64,000 nucleotides of DNA from Thiohalobacter thiocyanaticus (GTDB taxonomy: Bacteria > Pseudomonadota > Gammaproteobacteria > Thiohalobacterales > Thiohalobacteraceae): assembly GCF_002356355.1 (NCBI RefSeq), contig NZ_AP018052.1, forward strand, positions 310,001 through 374,000. The letters are read 5' to 3'. Positions within the stretch are counted from its first letter, which is position 1. Each line of letters opens with the position of its first letter. The position numbers were made by a program, and so were the translations under genes. Shown one piece after another: positions 3,672 to 12,077 of this stretch. Below the pieces are notes generated by a model, which saw nothing but the letters and a program-made list of their open reading frames with translations, did no database searches and was not told where the DNA came from.

Positions 3672-3755
3672 GTAGGATGGGTGGAGGCGCCACGCGCCGT
3701 AACCCATCGCCTGGCACAGGGAATGATGGGTTGCGCTGCGTTCCACCCATCCTAC
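3672..3755. repeat. REP-like inverted repeat, family B copy 1
   Basis: The element reads GTAGGATGGGTGGAGG ... GTAACCCATC, then GATGGGTTGCGCTGCG ... CACCCATCCTAC, two hairpins in mirror order. It ends two bases before the xerC stop codon. The 260 bp between xerC and hslV hold nothing else clear except a purine-rich AACGCAGAGGCTCGGAGGCGCAGAGG stretch at about 3570. Family B recurs around the RAYT gene at 11.4-13.4 kb. Confidence 0.8.
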
Positions 3756-9079: not shown

Positions 9080-9763
9080 GTGCCCGACTACGAACCTCCG
9101 CTGATTCTGGAGCCACCGGCCGGTACCGGGGTGCGCGCCAGCGTGATCTGGCTGCACGGCCTGGGGGCCAGCGGGCATGACTTCGAGCCGCTGATTCCCG
9201 AACTGGGACTGCTGGAGCGCGGCGTGCGCTTCGTGCTGCCGCATGCGCCGGAGCAGCCGGTCACCATCAACGGTGGTGCGGTGATGCCCGCCTGGTACGA
9301 CATCCGTGAACCGGACATCAATGCCGTCCCCGATGCGGACGGCATCCGGCGCTCGGTGGATTACCTGCAGCGGCTGGTGGCCGCGGAGATCGCACAGGGG
9401 CTGCCCTCCGGGGCCGTACTGGTGGCGGGCTTCTCCCAGGGCGGCGTCATCGCCCTGCACGCCGGCCTGACCCACCCGGCGCCGCTGGGCGGGGTACTGG
9501 CCCTGTCGACCTATCTCGCCCTGCCCGAGGCGCTCAGCCGCGAGATGCCGCCGGCCAACCGGGCCGTGCCGGTGTTCCTGGCGCACGGCACGGCCGATCC
9601 GGTGGTGCCCTTCGCCCTGGCCGGGGCCGCCCGTGACCGGCTGACCGGGTTGGGTTGCGCGGTGGATTTCCATGCCTATCCTGTGCCCCATACCGTGTCG
9701 CTGGACGAGGTCGCCGATATCCGCGCCTGGCTCGCGGCCCGGCTGGCACCATGGCTGGACTGA
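9080..9763 (+). CDS. Carboxylesterase / phospholipase, alpha/beta hydrolase
   Basis: A 227-residue cytoplasmic serine esterase of the family that includes Pseudomonas carboxylesterase and acyl-protein thioesterase. The oxyanion segment IWLHGLGASGHDF comes first, the nucleophile is Ser119 in GFSQGG, the acid is the Asp of HGTADPVVP, and the histidine is in YPVPHTVS. The start codon is GTG, with AAGGTG eight bases upstream. It is transcribed divergently from lptM-lysA with only about 70 bp between start codons, so the promoters must overlap. The natural substrate cannot be told. Confidence 0.92.
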   Translation: MPDYEPPLILEPPAGTGVRASVIWLHGLGASGHDFEPLIPELGLLERGVRFVLPHAPEQPVTINGGAVMPAWYDIREPDINAVPDADGIRRSVDYLQRLVAAEIAQGLPSGAVLVAGFSQGGVIALHAGLTHPAPLGGVLALSTYLALPEALSREMPPANRAVPVFLAHGTADPVVPFALAGAARDRLTGLGCAVDFHAYPVPHTVSLDEVADIRAWLAARLAPWLD

Positions 9764-9853
9764 GCCGGCACCCTTGATGCACGTCAACGCATGCACAGCC
9801 GGCTCGCGTAGACTGGGTGCATCCGGAAACAAACTCATCTTCAAGTGATCGCG

Positions 9854-10903
9854 ATGACTGGTAAATGGCTGCAACTGTCGCTGCTCGCACTGGCCCTGAC
9901 GCTGGCCGGCCCGGCTGCGGCCGAACCCAATGGCACACGCCTGTATGCGCAGATGTGCGCGGTCTGTCACGGTGATGCCGGCGACGGCGGCGTGGGCGTG
10001 CCCCTGCGGCTGCCGGCGTTCCAGGACGGCGTCTCCGATGACTATCTGAAGCAGACCATCCGCCTGGGGCGGCCGGGTCGGGTGATGCCGGCCTTCGATC
10101 ACCTGAGCGAGGCCGAGGTCGAGGCCATTGTCGAGCATATCCGCGGCTGGCATGAGGGCGAGCGACCCGAGTTCAGTCAGGCGCGCATCGCCGGCGATGC
10201 GCAGCATGGCAAACAGCTGTACGCGCAGCACTGCGCCCAGTGCCACGGTGACCAGGGCCAGGGCGGCCAGGGCACCGGCGTGACCTTCTCGCGCCCGCGC
10301 GATCTGCCCATCATCGCCCCGGCGCTGAACAATCCCGGCTTTCTGGCCGCGGCCTCCGACGCCATGATCAAGGCCACCCTGATGCAGGGCCGTGAGGGCA
10401 CGCCCATGGTCTCCTTCCGCGACCAGGGTCTGAGCGAGCAGGAGATCGATGACCTGGTCGCCTATGTGCGCAGTTTCGAACAGCAGCACACCGAGCCGGC
10501 CGCCCGAGTGGAAGATATCGAACCGGTACTGGTCTATGACTCGCCCTACAGCCTGGAGGAGACAGTCGAGGCGGTTGAGCGGGCCGCGGTGGGCAGGAAT
10601 TTCCGTCTCATCCGGCGCCAGAAGCTGGAGGAAGGCCTGTTTCCGGAAGGCGAGGCCAGCGACAAGCAGGTCATGGTCTATTTCTGCAACTTCAATTTTC
10701 TCTATGACGCCCTGACCATCGACCCGCGCGTCGGCCTGTTCCTGCCCTGCCGGGTCACCGTGGTCGAGCGGGAGGGCCAGGTGCAGGTGATGAGCATCAA
10801 CCCCAAACGCCTGAGCGTGCTGTTCAACAACGAACGGCTGGACCGGGCCTGCGACGAGATGCACGACCTGTATACCGCGATCCTGGAGGAGGCCACGTTT
10901 TGA
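9854..10903 (+). CDS. Diheme cytochrome c fused to a DUF302 domain
   Basis: A 349-residue exported protein. Residues 1-23 are a Sec signal ending in AAA. Two class I cytochrome c domains follow, with haem sites CAVCH (35-39) and CAQCH (127-131) and candidate Met ligands in GRVMPAF and GTPMVSF. From about residue 225 to the end is a DUF302 domain, recognisable by NPRVG-like spacing (IDPRVGLFLPCRVTVVE) and MSINPKRLSVLFNN; it has cysteines in YFCNFN and LPCRV. The start is the ATG at 9854; a GTG 9 bp upstream is possible. It overlaps the next DUF302 gene by 4 bp. A periplasmic electron-transfer role is likely; the DUF302 function is unknown. Confidence 0.9.
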   Translation: MTGKWLQLSLLALALTLAGPAAAEPNGTRLYAQMCAVCHGDAGDGGVGVPLRLPAFQDGVSDDYLKQTIRLGRPGRVMPAFDHLSEAEVEAIVEHIRGWHEGERPEFSQARIAGDAQHGKQLYAQHCAQCHGDQGQGGQGTGVTFSRPRDLPIIAPALNNPGFLAAASDAMIKATLMQGREGTPMVSFRDQGLSEQEIDDLVAYVRSFEQQHTEPAARVEDIEPVLVYDSPYSLEETVEAVERAAVGRNFRLIRRQKLEEGLFPEGEASDKQVMVYFCNFNFLYDALTIDPRVGLFLPCRVTVVEREGQVQVMSINPKRLSVLFNNERLDRACDEMHDLYTAILEEATF

Positions 10904-11361
10904 GACGCCTGAGACTGCCGCTGCTGATCCTGCTGCTGGCCGGCCTGCTGCGCCCGGCCCTGGCGCAGGACCTGTTCATGGTGCGCTCGCGCGTGCCCTT
11001 CGCCGAGGCGATGCTGATGCTGCAGGAGGCGGTGCGCGAGCAGGGCTATACCCTGTCCAGGGTGCAGCGGGTCGACGTCGGCCTGACCAACATGGGCTAC
11101 AAGACCGACAAGTACCGGGTGGTGTTCTTCGGCAAGCCGGAACAGGTGCGACGCCTGACCCGGGAGCACCCCGAGCTGATCCCCTACCTGCCGCTCAAGA
11201 TCGCCATCTTCGCCGAGGAGACCGACACCCTGCTCATCGCCGCCAATCCGCGGCGGATGGCCGAGTTCTACGGCGATGATGAGTTGACCGCCGTGTTCGA
11301 CCAGTGGGCGGAGGATATCCAGGCCATGCTGGATCGGCTGCAGGCCGCAGAGGGGATGTAA
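10900..11361 (+). CDS. Secreted DUF302 protein
   Basis: A 153-residue protein with a cleavable signal (LLILLLAGLLRPALA) followed by a single DUF302 domain (FAEAMLMLQEAVREQGY, then LPLKIAIFAEETDTLLIAANP). The start is TTG, sharing TTGA with the stop of the cytochrome-DUF302 gene, and a strong GGAGGAGG lies seven bases upstream, so the unusual start is well supported. The pair is thus translationally coupled, and both products go to the periplasm. Unlike the fused copy it lacks cysteines in the mature part. The two DUF302 domains may pair, as DUF302 proteins tend to dimerise, but that is inference. Confidence 0.85.
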   Translation: MRRLRLPLLILLLAGLLRPALAQDLFMVRSRVPFAEAMLMLQEAVREQGYTLSRVQRVDVGLTNMGYKTDKYRVVFFGKPEQVRRLTREHPELIPYLPLKIAIFAEETDTLLIAANPRRMAEFYGDDELTAVFDQWAEDIQAMLDRLQAAEGM

Positions 11362-11375
11362 AGGCATGCGTCCGC

Positions 11376-11486
11376 GATGGGTTGCGCTGCGCTTCACCCA
11401 TCCTACACGGGGAGCATGGGATGGGTGAGGCAACGCGGAAATCATCGGAAGGATCGTAGGATGGGTGAAGCGCAGCGTAACCCATC
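11376..11486. repeat. REP-like repeats, family B copy 2, upstream of RAYT
   Basis: Three half-units are clustered: GATGGGTTGCGCTGCGCTTCACCCATCCTAC (written as positions 11376-11406), a degenerate CATGGGATGGGTGAGGCAACGCGG at 11415, and GTAGGATGGGTGAAGCGCAG...ACCCATC at 11456-11486. The first and last are inverted with respect to each other. They end 33 bp before the RAYT start codon, within its leader. Confidence 0.8.
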
Positions 11487-11518
11487 ATAGGATGATTCCG
11501 AAAATCAGGAGGTCAAGG

Positions 11519-12052
11519 ATGACCCAGTATCGACGCCATTATGTCGCCGGTGGCACCTATTTCTTCACCGTGACTCTCGCTGACCGCTCAAGTCGCCTGC
11601 TGACAGAGCAGATCGCATTGCTGCGGCGCGCCGTGAGAGAGACGCGTCTGGAGCATCCATTCAATATTGATGCGATCGTGATTCTGCCGGATCACCTTCA
11701 CGCCATCTGGACCCTACCGGTAGGTGATGCCGATTTCTCGGTGCGCTGGCGCAAGATCAAGGCGCGTTTTTCACGCCGGTTGCCAAAGCTCGCCGCCGTT
11801 TCCAGAAGTGGCCGCCAGAAAGGTGAGAGGGGTGTATGGCAGAGACGGTTCTGGGAGCATGCGATACGCAATCCGCTGGATCTGCGCAATCACATCGATT
11901 ACATCCATTACAATCCGGTCAAGCATGGCCATTGCCGCCGTGTAAGCGACTGGCCTTATTCCTCGTTTCATCGCTATTGTGCTTCAGGGGTATATCCCAG
12001 GGACTGGAGCGGCTGCGTGGCTGAAACGATAGCGGGTTCGTTTGGTGAATGA
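11519..12052 (+). CDS. REP-associated tyrosine transposase (RAYT / TnpREP)
   Basis: A 177-residue Y1-HUH single-strand transposase of the IS200/IS605-related type. The HUH pair is His59-Leu-His61 in LPDHLHAIW, and the candidate nucleophile is Tyr128 in NHIDYIHYNPVKHG; VWQRRFWEHAIRN is the usual preceding block. The ATG at 11519 has a perfect AGGAGG six bases upstream; the frame is open earlier only because it runs through the repeat. Family B repeats flank it on both sides, and its stop codon abuts the downstream repeat. RAYTs bind and cut REP hairpins and are usually single-copy domesticated genes. Confidence 0.93.
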   Translation: MTQYRRHYVAGGTYFFTVTLADRSSRLLTEQIALLRRAVRETRLEHPFNIDAIVILPDHLHAIWTLPVGDADFSVRWRKIKARFSRRLPKLAAVSRSGRQKGERGVWQRRFWEHAIRNPLDLRNHIDYIHYNPVKHGHCRRVSDWPYSSFHRYCASGVYPRDWSGCVAETIAGSFGE

Positions 12053-12077
12053 TGGGTTGCGCTTCGCTCCACCCATC
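12051..12077. repeat. REP-like repeat, family B copy 3, at the RAYT 3' end
   Basis: GATGGGTTGCGC...TCCACCCATC begins within the RAYT stop codon (TGA at 12050-12052) and forms a hairpin. It fills most of the 41 bp between RAYT and the convergent XRE gene. Confidence 0.75.

Follow-up and report, generated by a model that had tools for sequence, protein, structure and literature searches.

An obligately paired diheme cytochrome c-DUF302 fusion and second exported DUF302 protein in Thiohalobacter thiocyanaticus and other Gammaproteobacteria

Two overlapping genes were characterized in a stretch of 64,000 nucleotides from Thiohalobacter thiocyanaticus (the window). The first, FUS, encodes a diheme cytochrome c fused to a DUF302 domain, and the second, D2, encodes another exported DUF302 protein. 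Comparison across genomes shows that both genes are obligately adjacent, with a conserved overlap of stop and start codons and the DUF302 fold in both products, and the two-protein FUS/D2 module is genuine and deeply conserved. The patterns of residue conservation described below also give good support to a heterodimer of the two DUF302 parts whose interface would carry a composite site, and a substrate and a direction of electron flow are proposed. The features are displayed in Table 1.

Table 1. Features of the FUS/D2 locus, with positions in the window and conservation among relatives
Feature	Position	Strand	Remarks
FUS, diheme cytochrome c-DUF302 fusion	9854..10903	+	349 aa; putative signal peptide at about residues 1-23
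Heme site 1, C35xxCH39	9956..9970	+	C35, C38 and H39 invariant (68/68)
Distal ligand M78 of heme site 1 (predicted)	10085-10087	+	invariant (68/68)
Heme site 2, C127xxCH131	10232..10246	+	kept in 67-68/68
Distal ligand M185 of heme site 2 (predicted)	10406-10408	+	68/68
Fused DUF302 domain, Cys class (FCNF ... LPC)	10520..10900	+	PF03625; PDB 1q9u and 1j3m by sequence and fold
C278, first cysteine of the DUF302 site	10685-10687	+	66/68; G in the two rows without all three
C299, second cysteine (LPC motif)	10748-10750	+	65/68
C333, third cysteine	10850-10852	+	59/68; partner C58 instead in 7 pairs
Coupling junction	10884..10903	+	Shine-Dalgarno GGAGGAGG within the EEAT codons, upstream of the TTGA overlap of the FUS stop TGA (10901-10903) and the D2 start TTG (10900)
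D2, second exported DUF302	10900..11361	+	153 aa; no Cys; PF03625; fold match 1q9u
D2 motif Q56-R57-V58-D59	11065..11076	+	V58 is Cys in 7 relatives

Open reading frame calls and Pfam matches agreed with the first-pass annotation on the two reading frames, their coordinates and strand, the heme domains and the DUF302 domains. Residues 25-207 of FUS match Cytochrome_CBB3 (E = 8e-29) and Cytochrom_C (E = 6e-21), in two stretches each, and residues 271-317 match DUF302 (PF03625; E = 1.5e-10, 41.2 bits versus a cut-off of 23). D2 matches the same family over residues 62-117 (E = 1.1e-6, 28.9 bits versus 23) and presents FGKP ... LPL where the fused domain has FCNF ... LPC; the absence of cysteine from this copy had been correctly noted. 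Both N-termini resemble signal peptides. The D2 structure model (pLDDT 83) aligned with 1q9u from Geobacillus (VIA Z 16.0, rmsd 3.5, 126 aligned residues), and the rows under the DUF302 matches (Z of 9.1 or less; folds like KA1, PYR and Bet v 1) were attributed to widely shared arrangements. The FUS model has low confidence (pLDDT 62) and served solely to match the domain and to place secondary-structure elements; its C-terminal part also matched 1q9u (Foldseek E = 8e-6, from this low-confidence model). In a congeneric genome (L009/L019, G010:C1:1687113-1688154) the fusion gene is split over two frames near residue 60, which is either a sequencing error or a broken copy.

With two CXXCH motifs and His/Met ligation deduced from the sequence (H39/M78 and H131/M185), FUS can be classed as a class I diheme cytochrome c. 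Such ligation is a usual trait of electron-transfer hemes and speaks against an open catalytic heme, and the invariance of these ligands fits the electron-transfer role suggested by the first-pass annotation. Two class I heme domains in tandem are also found in CcoP, QcrC and Kuenenia Kustc0458 (6h5l_B), but the records of these proteins show no DUF302, and the family scores of FUS are far under the curated cut-offs. For CcoP, the cbb3 subunit III, TIGR00782 scored 63 bits where the cut-off is 180, and this assignment was rejected. TsdA and SoxA, periplasmic c-type cytochromes of sulfur oxidizers, were also considered; FUS is likewise a c-type cytochrome predicted to be periplasmic. These thiosulfate-oxidizing cytochromes have a catalytic heme with His/Cys ligation. 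FUS presents no distal cysteine ligand, with methionine at both positions in 68/68 sequences, and SoxA-TsdA_cyt-c (PF21342) reached 16.8 bits against a cut-off of 27, so it was not assigned to this group either.

The overlap of the two genes through TTGA, preceded by a ribosome-binding site, had been read as coupled translation, and this is strongly supported by the comparison of 67 junctions. The exact four-base overlap (ATGA, GTGA or TTGA) is present in 60 of them, five overlap by one base and two do not overlap, and a Shine-Dalgarno-like motif was found in 64. Since this motif lies within the codons of the conserved C-terminal EEAT of FUS, part of the conservation of this C-terminus may serve translation instead of protein function. 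A promoter and terminator scan of positions 9600-11520 found none.

FUS was searched for in 369 Gammaproteobacteria sampled across families (threshold E <= 1e-45) and was present in 61 genomes of 33 families. The survey of genomes that the first-pass annotation had proposed showed D2 next to FUS in every locus scored, at or just after the FUS stop codon and on the same strand, down to 39% FUS identity. In the order of T. thiocyanaticus, the pair is present in 11 of 11 genomes, ten of them found by the search; in the eleventh, a contig end cuts FUS and its last 42 residues are readable just upstream of D2. A phylum-wide sample of 299 genomes added one further fusion, from the same class, and no relatives of the pair were found in the plasmid and viral collections. 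The gene maps showed that the pair is mostly a self-contained two-gene unit with variable neighbors. As it usually stands alone and is complete in every scored locus, FUS and D2 are each other's only constant partner. This adjacency, together with the 60 exact overlaps, indicates that the pairing is not due to chance. It could still be a conserved operon of two non-interacting proteins held together by vertical descent, as the order dapF-lysA-carboxylesterase-pair-cyaA of the window is kept in part of the families. However, elsewhere the pair is surrounded by unrelated housekeeping genes and stays together where all the surroundings change, and this explanation, which is also at odds with the four-base overlap and with the distance correlation and cysteine exchange described below, is very improbable.

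Regarding the cysteines, the fused DUF302 domain had been described as having two, which is wrong; there are three (C278, C299 and C333). Their distribution was compared with that of the D2 motif in 68 pairs, in alignments that are gap-free around FUS 333 and D2 58. In 58 pairs, FUS has the three cysteines and D2 has V or I at position 58. Seven pairs keep C278 and C299, present A, W, F or S at FUS 333, and have the cysteine at D2 58 instead. Two pairs (L123 and L125) have lost all three FUS cysteines, and their D2 proteins carry Q56D, R57M and D59N. The remaining pair (L126) has C278 and C333, F at position 299, and extra cysteines at FUS 321 and D2 148. The seven pairs with D2-C58 form one clade (support 100/100) on a branch of about 1.2% of the total tree length, which indicates that the exchange happened once and has since been kept along long branches, instead of arising several times independently. 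This exchange was noticed post hoc, about a dozen other FUS positions also differ in the clade (mostly in the DUF302 part, some near the cysteines in sequence), and its order offers only three genomes to sample. According to the models, of which that of FUS has low confidence, D2-58 is located in strand 2 and FUS-333 in the last helix. These positions are not equivalent in the fold, and the exchange therefore points to a contact between the two chains, where the third cysteine and the D2 QRxD motif would meet C278 and C299 at the FUS-D2 interface.

Moreover, pairwise distances over the 68 genomes correlated better between both DUF302 parts (r = 0.825) than between each of them and the cytochrome part (0.697 and 0.689), as would be anticipated if the domains touch each other, although such values are also influenced by noise and saturation. 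The hetero-complex proposed by the first-pass annotation is thus indirectly supported by co-evolution, through this correlation and a cysteine moving between the proteins. Structural disulfides were rejected as the sole role of the cysteines because with an odd number not all can be in disulfides, and the same pair is present in a cytosolic-looking DUF302 of the same genome.

These data are consistent with the following mechanism. FUS and D2 would form one periplasmic complex through DUF302-DUF302 contact, with a composite interface site made up of FUS C278 and C299, the third cysteine (FUS C333 or D2 C58) and the D2 QR(V/C)D motif. This site could bind or oxidize a small ligand of the thiol or sulfane type in organisms that oxidize reduced sulfur, and the electrons would leave singly through the two hemes, with the cytochrome c pool and a terminal oxidase as acceptors. 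Such a heterodimer, with a cysteine site that acts on a reduced sulfur compound and delivers electrons to the hemes, is a plausible reading to which we give a little less than an even chance. The further proposal of a new class of periplasmic sulfur-compound dehydrogenase, where catalysis or carriage would take place at the DUF302 site with its three cysteines between the subunits and electrons would exit through the fused diheme, is rather doubtful.

The link with sulfur was evaluated by gene content. SoxB is present in 56 of the 61 FUS-positive genomes versus 94 of 308 FUS-negative ones (Fisher p = 8e-20; relatedness uncorrected, the 61 spanning 33 families), DsrA in 48/61 versus 69/308 (p = 1e-16, relatedness uncorrected) and RuBisCO in 56/61 versus 118/308 (p = 1e-15, likewise uncorrected), and 49 genomes with SoxB, DsrA and RuBisCO do not carry FUS. 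This co-occurrence is phylogenetically structured and reflects chemolithoautotrophy equally. Neither SoxB nor DsrA reached the threshold in four FUS genomes. SoxY and FccB are present in two of these and absent from the remaining two, which belong to one genus (g192) and are the genomes without the cysteines (G221 and G321, loci L123 and L125). This coincidence, from a single lineage, is no more than suggestive. Both FUS heme sites are kept in this genus.

On the other hand, sulfur genes rarely adjoin the pair: soxYZ genes lie upstream only in two families (f44 and f99), DsrE-like genes are found in a third (f122), and soxB and soxY of T. thiocyanaticus are about 0.88 Mb away, so its pair is not part of a sox cluster. 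A general description as a sulfur operon gene was rejected. The association with sulfur-oxidation genes expected by the first-pass annotation therefore exists as co-occurrence in genomes, and as neighborhood only by exception and not in the window.

A carboxylesterase gene adjoins the pair in the window, where the other neighbors are presumably a transposase-like gene and cyaA. The reading frame directly after the pair (11465-12052) had no Pfam match at 1e-3 and is flanked by a REP-like palindromic repeat, GGATGGGTGAAGCGCAGCG (11376-11486 and 12049-12077; also at 3734, 13279 and 13344); by its sequence it resembles a REP-associated tyrosine transposase. The statement that DUF302 is usually free-standing is fair for this genome, where none of the four further DUF302 copies has a heme domain attached. 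One of them (L002, G000:C1:1064502-1067681) is exported, carries a CN ... PC motif and lies just downstream of a metallo-beta-lactamase-fold gene, which presumably encodes a protein resembling persulfide dioxygenase. The cytosolic-looking copy mentioned above (L001, G000:C1:539143-542334) has neighbors of the copper-resistance type, whose sequences resemble those of a multicopper oxidase and of an outer-membrane protein like CopB.

In other genomes the surroundings are different. In one genus (g7), the pair is located inside an operon that also encodes a NapA/formate-dehydrogenase-like molybdoenzyme, a related diheme and proteins like NapG and NapH, a setting that suits electron transfer linked to quinol better than sulfur. 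In L119 and L121 (G278 and G011) it lies between the napG- and napH-like genes of an operon with its own related diheme. This operon, also found at L142 (G001) and L143 (G008), encodes a diheme cytochrome, an 897-aa molybdoenzyme, the napG- and napH-like proteins and a 205-aa membrane protein without NCBIfam match, and its family scores are far under the cut-offs. In two genomes of the family of T. thiocyanaticus the molybdoenzyme operon lacks the pair, whose genes are found at another place in the genome. The location inside such an operon shows that a periplasmic chain linked to quinol can take up the pair. FUS could be an ordinary diheme shuttle that carries electrons from quinol or bc1 donors to an oxidase or reductase, with a DUF302 heterodimer that only anchors it to a partner or senses redox state and cysteines of regulatory or structural function. 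The His/Met hemes, the likeness of the cytochrome part to CcoP, QcrC and Kuenenia 6h5l_B and the position at L119/L121 are in line with this, as is a Bradyrhizobium DUF302 gene that adjoins ccoG according to the passage on it in PMC6515984. We find it somewhat unlikely, given that docking alone accounts neither for the near-invariant three cysteines and the D2 QRxD motif nor for the fact that these were lost together in a lineage where both heme sites persist.

Three cysteines shared between subunits are also typical of a soft-metal site. The interface could bind Cu(I) or As(III), with the diheme serving a metal-dependent redox step or sensing periplasmic metal or redox state. In addition to this cysteine inventory, the L001 protein with the same cysteine pair is encoded next to the copper-resistance-type genes. 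The DUF302 passages of two papers describe genes in comparable contexts, in a heavy-metal island (PMC7760498) and, for a gene resembling one from the sqr operon of Synechocystis, in connection with arsenic (PMC5061849). Nevertheless, the DUF302 parts have no CXXC or His-rich motif, the gene maps reveal no constant metal-gene neighbor of the pair, and the co-occurrence figures cover sulfur and CO2-fixation genes; metal binding is considered an unlikely function.

Compared with the solved structures, FUS and D2 share the DUF302 fold with 1q9u, 1j3m (Thermus TT1751) and 7tj1 (Brucella), and the CN ... LPC cysteine pair of the fused domain is present in the first two. Unlike FUS and D2, the three are free DUF302 proteins without heme or encoded partner. 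The closest context in sulfur oxidation is a single 191-aa DUF302 protein whose gene separates soxA from soxB in Acidithiobacillia such as Thermithiobacillus, and for which the authors speculated on periplasmic trithionate oxidation in the passages concerned (PMC5037610). It shares the sulfur-oxidation context with the pair, but it is a single protein instead of a heme fusion with a second DUF302, and the pair is mostly outside sox operons. In the passages on DUF302 consulted in the literature, neither the heme fusion nor the FUS/D2 pair is described and no function is assigned to DUF302, though structures have been solved since 2004.

A heme-fused, partner-locked DUF302 with a near-invariant cysteine site offers a spectroscopic readout (heme reduction) and a defined partner, and the ligand or substrate of DUF302 thus becomes directly screenable. 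The cysteine site shared by FUS and D2 is a specific and testable prediction. If the dehydrogenase reading were true, it would be the first enzymatic role for DUF302 and would help to explain the unassigned DUF302 proteins of sox operons. Furthermore, FUS marks an electron-transfer component common to 33 families of mostly sulfur-oxidizing, CO2-fixing Gammaproteobacteria.
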